From Thermoflexus hugenholtzii JAD2 (GTDB taxonomy: Bacteria > Chloroflexota > Dehalococcoidia > UBA2979): 64,000 nucleotides of DNA. The notes beneath the pieces were generated by a model. It ran no database searches. It had not been told where the DNA came from and worked only from the letters and a program-made list of their open reading frames with translations. The stretch is taken from assembly GCA_945903275.1 (NCBI GenBank), contig CAMDNW010000003.1, positions 62,001-126,000 on the forward strand, given 5' to 3'. Below are positions 12,389 through 20,829 of the stretch, piece by piece. Each line of letters starts with the position of its first letter. Position 1 is the first letter of the stretch. The position numbers were made by a program, and so were the translations under genes.

Positions 12389-12457
12389 TTGCCTGCCCCG
12401 CAACCCACCCGTAGCATAACAGCGCCACCGCGATGCCCACCTTCCGAGGAGCCACCC

Positions 12458-12886
12458 GTGCCAGACGCCGTCCAAGGCATCGAGGTTGGCCACGTCGCCA
12501 CCTTCACCCACGCCGTCACTGCGGACGACATCCAGAAGTTCGCCGATGTTACCGGCGACACCAACCCCGTCCACCTCGACCCCAAGTGGGCTGCGCGCAC
12601 CCGCTTCAAGGAACCGATCGCCCACGGCATGCTCTCCGCAGGCGTCGTCTCTGCCGCCCTCGGCACGCAACTCGCCCCCGGTGCCGTCGTCATCTACCTC
12701 AGCCAGAACATCCGCTTCCGCGCCCCCGTGAAGCCCGGCGACACCCTCACCGCTAAAGTCACCGCCACCAGCGTCGATGTCGAGCGCAGCCGTGTCGCCC
12801 TCGACACCGTCGTCACCAAACAGGACGGCACCGAAGTCCTCACCGGCGACGCCCTCGTCATGGTCGAACCCCCCAACGAGGCTTAA
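12458..12886 (+). CDS. MaoC-like (R)-specific enoyl-CoA hydratase
   Basis: The 142-residue single hotdog protein carries the hydratase-2 motif: FADVTGDTNPVHLD supplies the catalytic Asp and His, followed by FKEPIAHGML. It resembles PhaJ-type enzymes that hydrate trans-enoyl-CoA to (R)-3-hydroxyacyl-CoA. The start is a GTG at 12458 with GAGGAG just upstream; the longer open frame from 12389 begins in low-complexity sequence. It stands alone, 42 bases before a phosphodiesterase gene. The substrate is not fixed by sequence; a fatty-acid or polyhydroxyalkanoate role is inferred. Confidence 0.85.
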   Translation: MPDAVQGIEVGHVATFTHAVTADDIQKFADVTGDTNPVHLDPKWAARTRFKEPIAHGMLSAGVVSAALGTQLAPGAVVIYLSQNIRFRAPVKPGDTLTAKVTATSVDVERSRVALDTVVTKQDGTEVLTGDALVMVEPPNEA

Positions 12887-12927
12887 CCCTCGGCTCAACC
12901 ACAAACCACACAGGATCCGGGGAAAGC

Positions 12928-13479
12928 ATGAGGATCGGGCTGATCTCGGACACGCACCTCCCCCAGATGGGACCGACACCACCGGCCGAAGTCGCGCGCG
13001 CGTTCGAGGGTGTCGATCTCATCCTGCACGGCGGCGACATCCACACCCCTCAGTGTCTCGATTGGCTCGAGCAGATTGCGCCTGTCATCGCCGTTGAGAA
13101 AGGTCCCCATCCCATCCTCGAAGACCCTCGCGTCGAAGAGCGCCGCGTCTTCGAACTGGAGGGCCACACGATCGGCATGATGCATGACTTCGCCGCCCCC
13201 TACCTCACCGAGGTGCTGCCCGGTGTGCTGGCGAAGTACCCCCCTGACCACGACCTCGCAGCGGATCTGGAGCGCATCTTCCACGCGCGCATCAACATCG
13301 TCGTCTTCGGCGACTCGCACTTCGCCGTAGCGGAATCACATAACGGCATCCTGTTCCTCAATCCCGGCAGCCCCACCTTGCCGCGGCAAGTCAGGCGCCT
13401 CGGCACCGTCGCGATCCTCGAACTCACCCCCGGCACGAGGCATGCCGAGATCCTTGAACTGTCCACCTTCAGCGCCTGA
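12928..13479 (+). CDS. YfcE/MJ0936-family metallophosphoesterase
   Basis: The 183-residue protein has the calcineurin-like metal sites in order: GLISDTHLP (Asp, His), LILHGGDIHT (Asp), a degenerate VEKGPHP where GNCD is usual, GDSHFAV and LNPGSPTLPR. The GDSH box replaces the usual GHTH, and the Asn-bearing GN motif is not clear, so metal affinity or activity may differ from classical YfcE. Related proteins hydrolyse phosphodiesters including cyclic nucleotides. It is preceded by GGGGAAAG as a ribosome site. Confidence 0.8.
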   Translation: MRIGLISDTHLPQMGPTPPAEVARAFEGVDLILHGGDIHTPQCLDWLEQIAPVIAVEKGPHPILEDPRVEERRVFELEGHTIGMMHDFAAPYLTEVLPGVLAKYPPDHDLAADLERIFHARINIVVFGDSHFAVAESHNGILFLNPGSPTLPRQVRRLGTVAILELTPGTRHAEILELSTFSA

Positions 13480-13662
13480 CGACACGCGCCGCAATGCCTC
13501 GGCACAGCCTCGCTATCGAGGCATCACGCGCGCGCTTGGGAACACGTTCGCGGTGCGCTCGTCTACCCCATGCGTAATCGCAACACACCGGCAACAGTAT
13601 CAAAACACATCTACCGCGCATCCCGTTGAACATCTCATGAGACATTCCGGAGGAGTACCCAC

Positions 13663-14379
13663 ATGACGCGCACCAAGAAACTGCTGCTCACACTCTCGGC
13701 TACCGTCGCGGTAACCGCGCTCGCCGGCGTCGCCGTGCTCGCCGTCATGGCGATGCGCACGCCCACTACTGTCTCGCTCACCGATGCAGTCGCCAGCACG
13801 CAGGCGTCCGCGTCACTGCCTACATCTGCCTCACCCGCCGCATCGTCCGGCCTCACCGGCACATGGAAGGTCGTCACCGGCTCGTCCTTCGTCGGCTACC
13901 GCGTGAAGGAAGAACTCGCTCGCGTCGGCGCAAACACCGCCGTCGGCCGCACCACCGCCGTCACTGGCACGCTCGCCTACGACGGCTCGAAGATCACCAC
14001 CGTCGAGGTGCAAGCCGACCTCTCGCAACTTACTAGCGACTCATCGATGCGTGACAACGTGCTCCGCCGGCAGGCGATCGAGACCAGCTCCTATCCCACG
14101 GCGACCTTTGCGCTCACCCAGCCGATCCCCATCGCCTCGCCCCCCGCACCAGGCGTGGCCGTCGATGTCACCGCTGTTGGCAACCTCACCCTGCACGGCC
14201 AGACGAGACCCGTCTCCATCCCACTCCAGGGCACGCTCATCGATAGCAACGTCGTCATTGTCGGCAGCACCACGGTCGTCTTCGCCGACTACGGGATCCG
14301 CCAGCCGACCGCCCAGTCCGTCCTCACCATCGAGGATCGCGGCACCCTCGAACTCCAACTCGTCTTCGCCCGCGCCTGA
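13663..14379 (+). CDS. Secreted YceI-family lipid-binding protein
   Basis: The 238-residue protein begins with a basic N-terminus and one hydrophobic stretch (about 8-28, LLTLSATVAVTALAGVAVLAV), followed by a Ser/Thr/Ala-rich linker to about residue 60. The rest is a YceI domain: TWKVVTGSSFVGYRVKEELA, followed by SSMRDNVLRRQAIETSSYPTATFALTQ and NLTLHGQTRPVSIPLQG. YceI proteins form a lipocalin-like barrel that binds isoprenoid or other lipids. Here the protein is anchored to, or released from, the outer face of the membrane. An AGGAG lies 6-7 bases before the ATG. It is a monocistronic unit. Confidence 0.88.
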   Translation: MTRTKKLLLTLSATVAVTALAGVAVLAVMAMRTPTTVSLTDAVASTQASASLPTSASPAASSGLTGTWKVVTGSSFVGYRVKEELARVGANTAVGRTTAVTGTLAYDGSKITTVEVQADLSQLTSDSSMRDNVLRRQAIETSSYPTATFALTQPIPIASPPAPGVAVDVTAVGNLTLHGQTRPVSIPLQGTLIDSNVVIVGSTTVVFADYGIRQPTAQSVLTIEDRGTLELQLVFARA

Positions 14380-14615
14380 CGCGCGCCCCGCACACGCTTG
14401 CGCCGTCCCTACCCCTCCGGAAGCGGCGCGAGCCATCCGCCACCGTTCGCGATGAGCCGTTCCTTCCCCCGCTGGTGGGAGCCTGTCCCCGAGGCGCAGC
14501 CGATAGTCAACGCAGTACAAGCGGGCCTCGATAACGCATCGCGCCACATCCCCCTCCGCTTTCCCGAGGCCACCCCGTACCCTCCCGTCATGATCGCCAC
14601 TCTCATGCCCACCCC

Positions 14616-14645
14616 ACCTCACCTCACCTCACCTCACCTCACCTC
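14616..14645. repeat. Tandem pentanucleotide repeat ACCTC x6
   Basis: Six exact copies of ACCTC stand side by side, flanked by the near-copies ACCCC and ACCGC. The tract is outside any gene and about 120 bases from the parS site. Copy number is likely to vary by slippage. Confidence 0.9.
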
Positions 14646-14762
14646 ACCGCAAGGTAGCCCCATCCACCCAAAAATCACCAAACCTTGCGAAATCGAATCT
14701 CAGATATCGCAGCACGCGCAATCCGTTCGGATACGAACGAATATTCATGTTCGCAAGCAATT

Positions 14763-14778
14763 TGTTTCACGTGAAACA
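14763..14778. other. parS centromere site (ParB binding)
   Basis: The sequence TGTTTCACGTGAAACA matches the consensus bacterial parS exactly. The symmetry extends to a perfect 28-base palindrome from 14757 to 14784 (arms GCAATT outside the core). ParB dimers bind such sites and spread to build the partition complex that segregates the chromosome. In known genomes these sites cluster near the replication origin. No parA, parB or dnaA gene lies in the window. Confidence 0.93.
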
Positions 14779-14868
14779 AATTGCTAAGGCAGATGACATC
14801 TGGGCAAGCAGCAATATGCCAAACCCCTGCATCCCCGCTAAACTAGCCCTCCGGGAGGCGAGGATGCT

Positions 14869-16539
14869 GTGACAACCACCGAGAATGACCTGAGCGCGGC
14901 CCAACAAGAGTGGGAAGATGGCGCGCTCGCTCGCGTTCTCGCCCGCTTCCCCGAACGCCGCCCCGAGTTCCGCACCTCCAGCGCCGAGGTGCGCCGGGTC
15001 TACACCCCTACCGACGTCACTGGCCTCGACTACAAGGCAGATGTCGGGTTCCCCGGTCAGTACCCGTTCACCCGCGGCGTGCAGCCCACCATGTTCCGGG
15101 GCCGCCTCTGGACCATGCGACAGTACGCTGGTTTCGGCACCGCGCAGGAAACAAACGGCCGCTTCCGCCAGCTCCTCGCGGACGGCCAGACCGGCCTCTC
15201 TATCGCCTTCGACCTCCCCACCCAGATCGGCTACGACTCCGATCACCCGATGGCCGAGGGCGAAGTCGGCCAGGTCGGCGTCGCCATCGACACCCTCGCT
15301 GATATGGAGGAGATGTTCGACGGCATCCCCCTCGACAAGATCTCGACCTCCATGACCATCAACGCCCCCGCCGCGATCCTCGTCGCCATGTACCTCGCCG
15401 TCGCCGAGAAACAGGGCCATTCGATGAGCGTCGCCACTGGAACAGCGCAGAACGATGTTCTGAAGGAATACGTGGCGCGCGGCACATACATCTTCCCGCC
15501 GCGCCAGTCCGTCCGTCTCGCCGCTGACCTGATCACGTTCTGCGCCAAAGAAGCGCCGCGCTTCAACTCGATCTCCGTCTCCGGCTACCACATCCGTGAC
15601 GCCGGCTCGACCGCCGCGCAGGAGATCGCCTTCGCGTTCGCTAATGCCCTCGCGTACATCGAGGAATGCCAGCGCCGTGGCGCAGACATCGACGATGTCG
15701 CTCCGCGCATCTCGTGGATCTTCAACACTCACAACTACTTCTTCGAAGAGGTCGCGAAATACCGCGCCCTCCGCCGCATATGGGCGCGCCTGATGCGCGA
15801 ACGCCTCGGCGCGAAGCAGCCCGAGTCGTGGATGCTCCGCACGCACACGCAGACCGGCGGCTCCACCCTCACCGCGCAGCAGCCGCTCAACAACATCGTC
15901 CGCGCCGGCATCCAGGCGCTCGCCGCCGTCGTCGGCGGCGTGCAGTCCCTCGCGCTCTCCTGCTACGACGAGGCGCTCTCCATCCCCACCGAGCAGGCCC
16001 AGCGCGTCGCCCTTCGCACACAACAGATCATCGCGCATGAAACCGGTGCCGCCGACACCATCGACCCGATGGCTGGCTCCTACTACGTCGAATGGCTCAC
16101 CAACGAACTGGAGCGCGAGGCCACCGCGATCATGGATCGCGTCGATGACCTCGGCGGTGCCGTCGCCGCCATCGAGTCCGGCTACATGCAGGCCGAGATC
16201 CAAGAAGCCGCCGTCGCCTACCAGCGCGAGATCGAGTCTAAAGACAAGATCATCGTCGGCGTCAACGACTTCACCGAGGGTGACGAGGCCGCGCCGAACA
16301 TCTTCCGCCCCAACAACCGCGTCGGCATCGAACAGATGAAGCGCCTCGCGAACATCAAGACCGGCCGCGACATGGCCGCCGTCACCGCCTCGCTCGGCCG
16401 CCTCCGCGACGCCGCCCGCGGCGACGCCCACCTCATGCCCCCGATCCTTGAGGCTGTGAAGGTCTACGCCTCTGTCGGCGAGATGTGTGGCGTCCTCCGT
16501 GAAGAGTGGGGCGAATACACCCCGCCGACAGTCGTCTAG
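14869..16539 (+). CDS. Methylmalonyl-CoA mutase, large (catalytic) subunit
   Basis: The 556-residue protein is the stand-alone TIM-barrel subunit of a B12-dependent acyl-CoA mutase, which interconverts (R)-methylmalonyl-CoA and succinyl-CoA. The substrate-determining residues of the Propionibacterium enzyme are all present: Tyr89 as Y86 (RQYAGF), Arg207 as R204 (VARGTYIFPP) and His244 as H241 (SGYH). This favours methylmalonyl-CoA over isobutyryl- or hydroxyisobutyryl-CoA. The C-terminal B12-binding domain is absent and must be a separate small subunit encoded elsewhere. Translation begins at GTG 14869 with GGGAGGCGAGG upstream. It is monocistronic and lies 85 bases after parS. Confidence 0.92.
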   Translation: MTTTENDLSAAQQEWEDGALARVLARFPERRPEFRTSSAEVRRVYTPTDVTGLDYKADVGFPGQYPFTRGVQPTMFRGRLWTMRQYAGFGTAQETNGRFRQLLADGQTGLSIAFDLPTQIGYDSDHPMAEGEVGQVGVAIDTLADMEEMFDGIPLDKISTSMTINAPAAILVAMYLAVAEKQGHSMSVATGTAQNDVLKEYVARGTYIFPPRQSVRLAADLITFCAKEAPRFNSISVSGYHIRDAGSTAAQEIAFAFANALAYIEECQRRGADIDDVAPRISWIFNTHNYFFEEVAKYRALRRIWARLMRERLGAKQPESWMLRTHTQTGGSTLTAQQPLNNIVRAGIQALAAVVGGVQSLALSCYDEALSIPTEQAQRVALRTQQIIAHETGAADTIDPMAGSYYVEWLTNELEREATAIMDRVDDLGGAVAAIESGYMQAEIQEAAVAYQREIESKDKIIVGVNDFTEGDEAAPNIFRPNNRVGIEQMKRLANIKTGRDMAAVTASLGRLRDAARGDAHLMPPILEAVKVYASVGEMCGVLREEWGEYTPPTVV

Positions 16540-16595
16540 TAGGCATCACTACGGCGGCCAGGACATGTAGTCCTGCAAGCAAGCAGGAGCCATCG

Positions 16596-17317
16596 ATGTC
16601 ACACATGCATCTGTTCCACAGTCTGCCTCGTGCAGTCGTAGCGCTGATCTTCGCGATACTGCCACTGCTCACTGCGGTCGTCGTTCCCACATCCGCCGAA
16701 GCGCAGGTAAGCGCGATACTTCCCGAGGCGCTCAAGAATATCGAGTACACCTCCGAGTACGCGCCCACGAAGCGAGTGACGCTCCGCAACGGCCGCTACG
16801 AGTGGGACGGCCCGTTCCCACAGCGCCGCAACGCGGTCTTCGTAACCAGCGCGACAGTGCAGGAATGGGCCGTCGTCATCATCGGCACGAACACCGGCGG
16901 CAGCGGCAGCTTCAGCACCCTGCACCTCGTCCGCGCCGCCCGTGGGGCCGCGACCGCTGGCCCCGGCCCCGGCCCCGGCCTCTTCCTCGCATCCGCATCC
17001 GCATCCGCATCCGCATCCGCATCGAGAAGATTGACGTGACCGAGGAAAACGCTCTCGTCATTGAGTTGGTGACGCAAGGCCCGAACGAGCCACAGTGCTG
17101 CGGCACCAAGCGCGAGATGCGCGACTATCTGCCCGACGGCAACACCTTCCGCCTCATCGCCGTCGACGATGTCCCCGTTGGCGCGAACCCAACTCCCCCG
17201 CGCACTGGCAACCTCGGCGTCACGCGCGAGGCAAGCGCCGCACCCCTCGCGCTGCTGCTCGGCGCCCTCGCCCTGATCCTCACCGCGCGCAACGTATCGA
17301 GGCACCCAAGCATCTGA
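16596..17317 (+). pseudogene. Frameshifted secreted protein with hexanucleotide repeats
   Basis: Reading from ATG 16596 (CAGGAGC upstream) gives a signal peptide ending PTSAEAQ, then ILPEALKNIEYTSEYAPTKRVTL and WAVVIIGTNTGGSGSFSTLHLV, and stops at 17039. The natural continuation (IEKIDVTEENALVIELV, CCGTKREMRDYLPDGNTFRLIAV, then a hydrophobic C-terminal tail) is in the +2 frame and runs to 17317. Together they make one secreted protein of a type with a GGSG-Ly-V core and a C-terminal membrane segment. The two halves are joined through GGCCCC and GCATCC repeat tracts, where the frame must shift by a number of bases not divisible by three. Pseudogene, contingency locus or sequencing error are the options. 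Confidence 0.65.
16959..17024. repeat. Two hexanucleotide tandem tracts (GGCCCC x3.7, GCATCC x5)
   Basis: GGCCCC is repeated from 16959 to 16980 and GCATCC from 16989 to 17018, with a degenerate sixth copy. In one frame the second tract encodes alternating Arg-Ile, in another Ala-Ser. Gain or loss of whole hexamers would keep the frame, so the frameshift in this gene needs a separate event. Confidence 0.9.
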
Positions 17318-17961
17318 TGCCAGCCCGCCGCCGCCCCTTCGCTCTCAAACACGCCGAGGCGCATCTCGCAGTAGCTGACCCGGTGCTGGCCGCGCTCATC
17401 GCAGAGCATGGCCGCTACACCGTGCGCCCCGGCAGCGACCCGTACGCATGGCTGATCCGCACCATCCTGTTCCAGCAACTCGCGGGTAGCGCCGCCCGCA
17501 CCATCCAGCGCAAATGGTTCGCGCTCTACGGTGATGAAACGCGCATCCCTACGCCGGAGCAGATCATCGCTACCACCGACGAGCAATTCCGCTCGACCGG
17601 CGTGTCGAGGCAGAAGGCCTCCTACTTCCGCGATGTAGCGGCACGAATGCTCGACGGCCGCCTCACCTTCGATGGCCTCGGCCGCCTGCCGGATGAAGAC
17701 GTGACGAAGTACCTGACCGCCATCCGTGGCGTCGGCGAGTGGTCGGCGCACATGTTCCTGATGTTCGAACTCGGCCGGCCCGACATCCTCCCTATCGGCG
17801 ACTTCGGCGTCCGCAACGGCATGCGCGTCGCCTACGGCCTCGATGCCGTCCCCAGCCCGGCCCGCGCCCGCGAGATCGGCGCACCTTGGGCCCCCTACCG
17901 CTCGGTCGCCTCGTGGTACATGTGGCGCGCGGTTGAGGGCGTGTGGGTGGGAGAGACGTAG
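17317..17961 (+). CDS. DNA-3-methyladenine glycosylase, AlkA/HhH-GPD type
   Basis: The 214-residue protein removes alkylated purines from DNA in base excision repair. The helix-hairpin-helix is LTAIRGVGEWSAHMFLMF and the catalytic Asp is in DILPIGDFGVRNG, as in AlkA. The N-terminal beta domain of E. coli AlkA is missing, so it belongs to the compact bacterial/archaeal class. SWYMWRA near the end is the family's usual Trp-rich helix. The ATG at 17317 overlaps the TGA of the upstream frame (TGATG), which suggests it was once coupled to the intact upstream gene. Confidence 0.9.
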   Translation: MPARRRPFALKHAEAHLAVADPVLAALIAEHGRYTVRPGSDPYAWLIRTILFQQLAGSAARTIQRKWFALYGDETRIPTPEQIIATTDEQFRSTGVSRQKASYFRDVAARMLDGRLTFDGLGRLPDEDVTKYLTAIRGVGEWSAHMFLMFELGRPDILPIGDFGVRNGMRVAYGLDAVPSPARAREIGAPWAPYRSVASWYMWRAVEGVWVGET

Positions 17962-18012
17962 AGCGCGCCCCCGTATACTTCTCATGCATATGTACTGTGC
18001 GAGGAGTGAGTC

Positions 18013-18918
18013 ATGCGCATCGCCGTCTTCGGTCAGGCTACCTTTGGTAAAGACGTGTTCGAGGCGCTCGTAAAAGCCGGTGAGGAAGTCGTCGGAGTCT
18101 CGACGCCCATTCCCGGCACGCGGCCCGACCCCCTGTTCGTGGCCGCCGAGGCCGCAGGCCTCCCGATCATCGAGACGCCTGCACTGCGGAAGCGCGAGCC
18201 GCTCGCCGCCTTCAAGGCCTGGCAGCCTGACCTGCTTGTGTTCGCGTTCGTCACCGACATCGTCCGGCAGCCCGTGCTGGATGCGGCCACCCACGGAGCG
18301 ATCCAATACCACCCATCGCTGCTCCCCCGGCACCGGGGCCGCTCGGCAATGAACTGGCCGATCATCGCCGGGGAAACCACAACGGGGCTGACAGTGTTCT
18401 GGGTAGACGAGGGCATCGACACCGGCCCGATCCTGCTCCAGCGCGAGGTCGAGATCACGCCCGACGACACCCTCGGCTCCCTCTACTTCCCGCGCCTCTA
18501 CCCGATGGGCGTCGAGGCGCTCGCCGAGGCCGCCCGCATGGTGCGCGACGGCGTCGCGCCGCGCATCCCGCAGGATCACAGCCTCGGCACCTACGACCCG
18601 CCATGCGAGGCACAGCACGCGCGCATCGACTTTACCCGCCCCGCACGCGTCGTCTACAACCACATCCGCGGCTGCGACCCCGCTCCGGGCGCGTACGCGT
18701 CACTGCGCGGTGCGCGCCTGGGCATTTTCGACACCACACTCACCGAAGGTCACGCGACCGCCTCGCCTGGGACGGTGACGGCGCTCACCGACGCCAAAGC
18801 CGAGATCGCAGTGGTTGGTGGGACGCTGCATATCGGGCGTGTACAGCAGCCAGTCGCGGCAAAAGTCGCGGCGGCGGAGGTACTTGTGGTTGGTGACGTA
18901 TTGGAGAACGGCCAGTGA
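18013..18918 (+). CDS. Formyltransferase, Fmt / 10-formyl-THF hydrolase-like
   Basis: The 301-residue protein has the N-terminal formyltransferase domain with IQYHPSLLPRHRGRSAMNWPI (His100) and VDEGIDTGPILLQ (Asp136). Fmt and related enzymes carry an Asn before the His; here Gln occupies the nearby position, closer to the 10-formyltetrahydrofolate dehydrogenase hydrolase domain. A C-terminal OB-like domain (PARVVYNHIRGCDPAPGAYA) is present as in Fmt. It is therefore either a variant methionyl-tRNA formyltransferase or a folate-dependent hydrolase. A distinct ATG is preceded by GAGGAG. It forms an operon with alanine dehydrogenase through a GTGA overlap. Confidence 0.78.
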   Translation: MRIAVFGQATFGKDVFEALVKAGEEVVGVSTPIPGTRPDPLFVAAEAAGLPIIETPALRKREPLAAFKAWQPDLLVFAFVTDIVRQPVLDAATHGAIQYHPSLLPRHRGRSAMNWPIIAGETTTGLTVFWVDEGIDTGPILLQREVEITPDDTLGSLYFPRLYPMGVEALAEAARMVRDGVAPRIPQDHSLGTYDPPCEAQHARIDFTRPARVVYNHIRGCDPAPGAYASLRGARLGIFDTTLTEGHATASPGTVTALTDAKAEIAVVGGTLHIGRVQQPVAAKVAAAEVLVVGDVLENGQ

Positions 18919-20039
18919 TTGTCGGGACGGTCAAGGAAATAAAACTCGAGGAATATCGCGTCGCGCTGACGCCGCAAGGCGTCGCGAGCATCGTGTCGGC
19001 CGGGCACTCGGTTGTCATCGAGCGCGAGGCAGGCATCGGGTCGAACTTCACCAACGCCGAGTACCTCGATGCTGGCGCATCGGTGCTGGACACCGCCGAG
19101 GAGGTGTACACGCACGCCGACCTCATCTGCAAGGTGAAGGAGCCGCAACACCCAGAGTTCGCTCTGCTGCGCGACGGGCAGTTGCTGTTCACCTACCTGC
19201 ACCTGGCGGCAGAGCCCGAGGTCACCGACGCGCTGATCGCCTCGCGCTGTACAGCCATCGGCTACGAGACCGTGCGCCGCGACGACGGCTTCCTACCGCT
19301 GCTCGCCCCAATGTCCGAGATTGCGGGCCGCATGGCCGTCGAGATCGGCGGTCACTTTCTGAAGCGGCCCGGGCCGGGGCGCGGGATGCTGCTGGGCGGG
19401 TTACCGGGCGTGCCGCCTGCGCACGTCGTGATCGTCGGCTCGGGCAACGTCGGCAAAAACTCAGTGCGCTCGGCAGTGGGGGCCGGCGCGCGCGTCACCG
19501 TGATCTCGAACAGCGGCGACCAGCTCCGCGCGCTCGAGGAACTGTACGCAGGCCGCGTGGAGACCGTGCTCGCCTCGCCACAGGCCATAGCCGACGCCGT
19601 AGTCGGCGCTGACCTGCTCATCGGCGCCGTACTCGTCGAGGGCCGCCGCGCGCCCGTCGTCGTGACGCGCGAGATGGTGCGCTCGATGGGCCCCGGCGCG
19701 GTCGTCGTCGACGTAGCCGTCGACCAAGGTGGCTGCATCGAGACTACCCGCCCCACCGACCACGTCCACCCGGTGTACGTCGAGGAAGGCGTAGTTCACT
19801 ACGCCGTGCCAAACATGCCGGGGGCGGTGCCGCGCACCTCCTCGCGCGCGCTCACCGGCCTGACGCTCCCCTATATTCTCGCGGTCGCCAACCGCGGCTT
19901 CGAGGCGGCCGTACTGGGCGACGTGGCGCTCTTCCGCGCCGTAAACACTTACCGAGGCCATCTCACCCACGCGGGCGCCGCGGAATCCCTCGGCCGCCCG
20001 TGGACGCCGCTCGATACCCTGCTCAGCGCAGTGAAGTGA
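18915..20039 (+). CDS. ald: Alanine dehydrogenase
   Basis: The 374-residue NAD-dependent enzyme converts L-alanine to pyruvate and ammonia. Family segments are VGTVKEIKLEEYRVALTPQGV with the substrate-binding Arg, LICKVKEPQ with the catalytic Lys, LFTYLHLA with the catalytic His, the Rossmann motif VVIVGSGNVGKNSV, and VVVDVAVDQGGCIETTRPT. Length and motifs are complete. The GTG start overlaps the TGA of the formyltransferase gene, and the HAD gene follows with another GTGA overlap. It may link alanine catabolism or NADH re-oxidation with this small operon. Confidence 0.93.
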   Translation: MIVGTVKEIKLEEYRVALTPQGVASIVSAGHSVVIEREAGIGSNFTNAEYLDAGASVLDTAEEVYTHADLICKVKEPQHPEFALLRDGQLLFTYLHLAAEPEVTDALIASRCTAIGYETVRRDDGFLPLLAPMSEIAGRMAVEIGGHFLKRPGPGRGMLLGGLPGVPPAHVVIVGSGNVGKNSVRSAVGAGARVTVISNSGDQLRALEELYAGRVETVLASPQAIADAVVGADLLIGAVLVEGRRAPVVVTREMVRSMGPGAVVVDVAVDQGGCIETTRPTDHVHPVYVEEGVVHYAVPNMPGAVPRTSSRALTGLTLPYILAVANRGFEAAVLGDVALFRAVNTYRGHLTHAGAAESLGRPWTPLDTLLSAVK

Positions 20040-20791
20040 AAGCCGTCCTCTTCGACCTCGACGGCACGCTGTGGGGACACACCGCGCCGCCCGACTTCGC
20101 GCGCATCACGCAGTTGCAGGTCTCAGCGCTCGCATCGGAGTTCGAGCAGCTTGATGCACCAGTAGAGCGACGCACCAAAATCGTCGAGGCGGTATGGAGC
20201 GAGTTTCGAGCAGCGGACGAGCGCACCGGGGGCGAAGGCACGTTGCGTGAGGTGGACGGCATCGAGGTCGTGCGAGCTGCGGTGGCGCGATATGGCCTAG
20301 ACATCCGGGCGGGCGATGCCGCGCGCTGGTGGGACGTACTGCACTCGATCCCGTACAGCCACTTCAACATCCGGCCATACGGCGACGCCATCGAGACACT
20401 GCAAGGCCTGCGGGCGCTTGGCCTGCGTATCGGCATCGTGACCAACCAGCCGATGACCGCCGCCGTGCTCGTGCCGCACCTCGATGAAGCGGGCCTACTC
20501 GCACACATCGATACGGTGGTCACGGCGGCGGATGTCGGCTACCGGAAGCCCCACCCTTCAGTGTTCCTCGCGGCCCTCGAAGCGCTGGAAGTGGCCCCAT
20601 CTCAGGCGATCATGGTGGGCGACTCGTTCGTGAACGACGTGATCCCGGCGATGCAACTCGGGATGACTGCGGTACTGAAAGCGGGTGCGGCCTCGGAAGA
20701 CCGGGGCGCGGCGCCGTTCGCGATTGCAGAACTGGCGGAGCTACTCGCGCTGGAGATTGTCGATTCCAGCGCACTTCGTTCGACGTACTAG
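20036..20791 (+). CDS. HAD-superfamily hydrolase
   Basis: The 251-residue protein has the four HAD motifs in order: AVLFDLDGTLWG (nucleophile Asp), IGIVTNQP, the Lys in VGYRKPHPSVF, and MVGDSFVNDV. An insertion of helical cap between motifs I and II places it in subclass I with a YjjG/phosphoglycolate-phosphatase-like layout. The substrate is not evident. GTG at 20036 overlaps the ald stop; an upstream in-frame codon at 20000 is possible but would overlap ald deeply. Confidence 0.85.
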   Translation: MKAVLFDLDGTLWGHTAPPDFARITQLQVSALASEFEQLDAPVERRTKIVEAVWSEFRAADERTGGEGTLREVDGIEVVRAAVARYGLDIRAGDAARWWDVLHSIPYSHFNIRPYGDAIETLQGLRALGLRIGIVTNQPMTAAVLVPHLDEAGLLAHIDTVVTAADVGYRKPHPSVFLAALEALEVAPSQAIMVGDSFVNDVIPAMQLGMTAVLKAGAASEDRGAAPFAIAELAELLALEIVDSSALRSTY

Positions 20792-20829
20792 TAACACCGA
20801 AGAAAAACCGAAGCGAAGGAGTACCAGCC

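Follow-up and report, generated by a model that had tools for sequence, protein, structure and literature searches.

The parS site upstream of the methylmalonyl-CoA mutase gene in the window, the 64-kb stretch of DNA analysed here, is very probably a functional secondary parS, derived as a copy of a unit of about 60 bp that multiplied in a small Dehalococcoidia clade. The window corresponds to C3:62001-126000 of G000, a Chloroflexota/Dehalococcoidia MAG of 1.75 Mb in 29 contigs (97% complete, 1.7% contaminated). A functional secondary parS is the most economical account of the site. What sets the case apart is clade-specific multiplication of parS from a one-site baseline together with origin-like polarity at nearly every copy; a lone site would be ordinary.

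A motif search of the 64-kb window locates the exact 16-bp parS consensus, TGTTTCACGTGAAACA, at 14763-14778 without a mismatch, as the first-pass annotation had reported. It is the sole match in the window even with three mismatches allowed, a level at which matches are rare in shuffled sequence. The same annotation described a perfect palindrome of 28 bp (14757-14784); the symmetry is real, but its length is 30 bp (14756-14785, AGCAATTTGTTTCACGTGAAACAAATTGCT), with the 28-bp version nested inside, the parS core at the centre and the arms AGCAATT and AATTGCT on either side. Its view that a chance match is negligible holds, as about 2e-6 exact matches are expected by calculation per window at 66% GC, and a control pattern (parS reversed, not complemented) has no match in 60 genomes. 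The gap, previously called AT-rich, has a GC content of 0.50 over 14650-14868 versus 0.66 for the whole window. The palindrome does not show the features of an intrinsic terminator (GC-rich stem, loop, T run), and Rfam and tRNA scans of the window give no matches.

The genes parA, parB and dnaA, noted earlier as absent from the window, are all encoded on other contigs. Mapping of exact parS matches across the genome and location of ParB, proposed as a check, yield three exact sites in G000: the window's site on C3 and two sites with the identical core, 200 bp apart, at the par locus (C10:9704 and C10:9904). The gene order there is rnpA-yidD-parS-parS-yidC-jag-parA-parB, with rnpA assigned from position and sequence only. 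A one-mismatch site is found at C2:56449. Lack of a ParB homologue would have weakened the earlier interpretation; a cognate ParB is encoded, adjoining ParA on C10, scores above the profile cut-off (2.4e-52) and matches solved ParB/Spo0J chains. Its recognition region carries GKSR and GHAR in alignment with parS-binding ParB/Spo0J. Residues of the R173/G201 type tie ParB to parS rather than to NBS, the Noc site (PMC7383237). The window's site is not an NBS, since its base pattern is that of parS and the G000 ParB carries R and G at the equivalents of 173 and 201, not the Noc-type QKKR; by these residues, the protein is of parS-type specificity. SMC (1e-247) and ScpB (1.7e-47) are also encoded in G000. 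Taken alone, the window's site is, on its bases, an ordinary parS.

In the proposed explanation, the window's parS would act like any other: ParB made from the other contig would load there as a CTP clamp, cover a few kilobases by spreading and bring in SMC. The ancestral centromere is the yidD-yidC parS beside parAB and not the window's site; the parS-centred unit of about 60 bp has multiplied in the clade, and one copy lies in the 2-kb insert that separates maoC from the mutase gene. We infer the occupancy of the window's site by ParB, the copying route and any role in replication polarity.

The first-pass annotation also read the site as a mark of chromosome partitioning that would help to place the window on the replicon. 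A parS site with a cognate ParB in the genome stands, but a position of the window near the origin is not supported: the ancestral parS lies between yidD and yidC by jag-parA-parB, and the candidate oriC is on a third contig. This contig, C6, carries dnaA, and the 350-bp gap downstream of it (dnaA-obg), where DnaA-box-like repeats occur and the skew turns weakly from minus to plus, is the best oriC candidate in G000. On these unordered contigs, 86 kb or more separate the window's parS from the par cluster, whichever ends are joined, and its distance to the dnaA gap, counted over the contig ends, comes to about 98 kb. A DnaA-box cluster at C1:50497-50760 was rejected as an origin because it lies within the coding sequence of a cell-wall gene.

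Comparison within the family places the window's site in context. Exact parS is present in 34 of 44 family genomes, 28 of which carry exactly one, and in almost every readable genome the single site lies just downstream of yidD and before yidC, flanked by one or both genes. More than one exact site occurs in G000 (3), G001 (9), G004 (6), G019 (8), G028 (2) and G063 (2). Numbers of three to nine are found only in a small clade that includes the genus of G000; the mutases of G001, G004 and G019 are the nearest to that of G000 (83, 83 and 80% identity). This baseline of one yidD-yidC site, exceeded to this extent only in the small clade, indicates that the window's parS is derived and secondary. 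Scattered copies of the palindrome had been named as grounds for doubting the earlier interpretation, and scatter is in part what the close relatives display, their 9, 6 and 8 exact sites (G001, G004, G019) being distributed over 8, 6 and 8 contigs. At the places in G000 that are orthologous to relatives' sites, no decayed parS was detected, and most of these places are without a skew step.

The window's copy resides in an insert that is specific to the lineage and separates maoC from the mutase gene (12887-14868). It comprises two genes and parS and measures 1,982 bp, versus 43-166 bp in 20 relatives; the 1.98-kb insert is absent from the maoC-mutase junction of all 20. Its left border is a MaoC-like dehydratase gene (12389-12886, plus strand; PF01575, 1e-26), which adjoins the mutase gene in relatives, and its right border is the gene for the large subunit of methylmalonyl-CoA mutase (14869-16539, plus strand; PF01642, 9e-213), with family orthologues of 70-83% identity. 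The block of suf operon, maoC, mutase and HhH-GPD is conserved in relatives, and the nearest named mutase loci belong to Chloroflexota/Dehalococcoidia MAGs with matching gene order. Within the insert, a calcineurin-like phosphoesterase (Metallophos_2; 12928-13479, plus strand; PF12850, 3e-24) is one of a family that matches nine times in G000 and up to nine times in any one genome, with some members truncated or adjacent to each other, and a YceI-like protein (13663-14379, plus strand; PF04264, 7e-22) has no close relative among the loci compared. The insert also holds a tandem pentanucleotide, CACCT (14610-14648, 7.8 copies). Just upstream of parS, an intergenic dispersed repeat of about 58 bp (14466-14525) recurs with about 86% identity at C5:37066, C4:44552 and, in shorter form, C15:2748. 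Beyond widespread families, no genes are common to the window and the parS loci of other genomes.

The mutase start at 14869, which the first-pass annotation put at 85 bases, lies 84-90 bp downstream of the parS core or palindrome, depending on the end used. Such a position would suit a transcription-factor operator for the mutase operon that matches parS by chance. This explanation is scarcely credible, as the 16 bp are identical to the par-locus sites and the flanks are shared with them, 18 of 18 mutase orthologues examined in relatives have no nearby parS within four mismatches, and no sigma-70-type promoter or terminator match is found near the window's parS.

Secondary parS status is further supported by the sequence around the core. 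A parS-centred unit of about 60-75 bp (14735-14808, strongest at 14758-14793) recurs in both copies at the par locus and in three variants elsewhere in G000 (nhmmer E 1.6e-19 to 1e-5). The identity of parS flanks within G000 is 0.71 versus 0.30 for the null, and in each of four genomes the within-genome flank similarity exceeds all 300 random draws. Flanks that are alike within a genome indicate that a unit of about 60 bp, centred on parS, was copied. The three variants, C4:17970, C2:56450 and C14:8925, were recovered by an nhmmer profile of the three exact G000 sites (E 8e-8 to 1e-5); those at C4:17970 and C14:8925 retain the arms AGCAATT/AATTGCT around a core with three changes. Altered cores are thus present in three of six unit copies of G000, suggesting that the copies may partly be inert repeats. 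Palindromes that reach past the parS core exceed chance in the family and their arm sequences differ between genera, which indicates that symmetry is kept and not a fixed arm sequence; template switching that repairs imperfect palindromes might account for the extended symmetry. In genus g10 (L029, L030), the single parS centres a palindrome of 50-52 bp (with a few masked bases in L030), and in genus g5 (L015) it lies in a 38-bp palindrome with different arms.

The common flanks, the variants with retained arms, the extended palindromes beyond chance in several genera and the location of the window's copy inside a lineage-specific insert would also be compatible with a parS unit that spreads as a small palindromic repeat by copying or template switching, the window's copy then being functionless or at most affecting the mutase promoter. 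A mere repeat of this kind is quite improbable, because in four genomes the cores are exact amid diverging flanks, a pattern indicative of selection on the core, and because most relatives have retained exactly one exact copy.

The window's parS is accompanied by a change in GC skew. On C3, a skew of about -0.2 on the left gives way to one of about 0 on the right, the transition falling 2-6 kb downstream of the site. Gene by gene, GC3 skew climbs from about -0.4 to about 0 in a zone at 16500-20800 of the window, and within 6 kb the skew by the site moves from about -0.35 to about 0 without turning clearly positive. Among background positions measured with 8-kb windows, this rise taken alone ranks only in the top 3-6%. 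Across the four multi-site genomes, raw GC skew rises from left to right at 22 of 23 exact parS loci (z 10), and 19 of 20 secondary sites lie at upward steps (z 8.5 versus draws matched for contig-end truncation). Strand-corrected GC3 skew computed with two gene callers agrees with the raw result, and the sense of the change is independent of contig orientation. In colinear blocks of G001 and G000, steps with and without parS are 0.22 versus -0.04, 0.09 versus -0.14 and 0.48 versus 0.02. Ranked against 227 background positions, the excess steps of 0.26, 0.23 and 0.45 at L046, L047 and L049 each come in about the top 3% (joint p 2e-4). Given the autocorrelation of the background, the relatedness of the four genomes and the limit of three paired loci with enough data, the skew values are strong, not final. 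At the window's locus, the step is +0.10, versus -0.08 to -0.30 in five relatives without parS. Among the variant units, C4:17970 coincides with a comparatively large rise (top 2.3%, or top 0.6% in raw skew) and C14:8925 at a rise in the top 8%; C2:56450 shows none.

Gene orientation was rejected as the cause of the skew steps, as strand-corrected skew has no mean step at divergent, convergent or tandem background gaps, and regional skew is not tracked by gene strand. Nearly all secondary parS sites lie at upward steps with an unexpected, origin-like polarity, and this link is real in these data. It may stem from dispersed initiation or from genome history.

Upward GC-skew steps are the trace left by diverging forks. 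Dispersed or shifting initiation, which would add to the parS reading, assumes that secondary parS sites lie at or near places where replication starts, or recently did, in some cells; forks diverging from these sites would leave the upward step, and ParB-parS would mark alternative origin domains. This proposal draws on the skew counts with their GC3 agreement, on the three orthologous colinear places that lack both parS and step, and on the difference between the window's locus and its five parS-less relatives. It also gains from genus g12 (L026, L027, L028), where DnaA-box-like repeats follow the yidD-yidC parS by 8-52 bp, suggesting that oriC and parS may coincide there, and from multi-origin cyanobacteria, in which DnaA-independent replication goes along with irregular skew (PMC7198777). 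Initiation at the secondary sites is nevertheless unlikely. DnaA-box clusters are absent at the parS sites of the multi-site clade, including within 1.5 kb of the window's parS (within 1 kb with a relaxed box), and dnaA is present with a plausible oriC adjacent. AT skew shows no step across parS loci, many strong skew steps in G000 are without a parS copy, and at some sites the turn is several kb away from parS. That a new origin domain arises, or is marked, with each gain of a parS unit, so that the chromosome has several origin-like skew turns and a separate centromere site at each of them, is conceivable to the same small degree.

Rearrangement or assembly history offers a different cause: with a single origin, inversions and translocations would have made the skew steps, and parS would have been tolerated or retained at origin-facing junctions without a causal link. 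The GC skew of G000 (C1-C20) is a patchwork of many abrupt upward and downward steps, most of them without parS, unlike a simple two-arm chromosome; the largest are at C8:71.5 kb, C2:39.5 kb and C5:41.5 kb. Orthologous blocks carry opposite skew signs in different relatives, and every genome compared is a MAG split into tens to hundreds of contigs. This history is a genuine possibility that falls somewhat short of an even chance. An inversion produces one upward and one downward step, yet parS sites occur almost only at upward ones. Gene order across parS is as in relatives at L046, L047, L049 and the window's site, so that the step is not at a local breakpoint. In addition, exact matches between unit copies are below 40 bp, and exact repeats of that length are too short to mislead usual assembly k-mers.

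With the window's site read as a functional secondary parS, the clade presents a case of bacterial centromere multiplication in which sister genomes allow a gene-by-gene comparison of a one-site baseline with a clade-specific gain. If the skew link holds in closed genomes, centromere position would be tied to replication start, and multi-origin replication could be revealed outside cyanobacteria. Multi-origin cyanobacteria share the irregular skew, for which dispersed initiation is a possible reading, but no parS link exists there, whereas the present genome has dnaA and a plausible oriC. The NBS sites of Noc are a related palindrome with a chromosome-wide distribution; unlike these, the sites described here have the parS base pattern and a ParB with parS-type and not Noc-type residues. 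In most bacteria, parS is ori-proximal and new sites are tolerated best near old ones, and Streptomyces and Listeria have expanded sets of about 20 sites near oriC (PMC5815017). The clade resembles them in its many sites per genome, gained over time, but their sites cluster round the origin, whereas here origin-like skew turns recur at separate loci on unordered contigs. With the chromosomal parS of ParABS/Spo0J-type centromeres in general, the system shares the exact 16-bp consensus, cognate ParA, ParB and SMC, and copies at the par locus; it differs in its clade-specific dispersal from one ancestral site, in common flanks of about 60 bp and in upward skew steps on many contigs.
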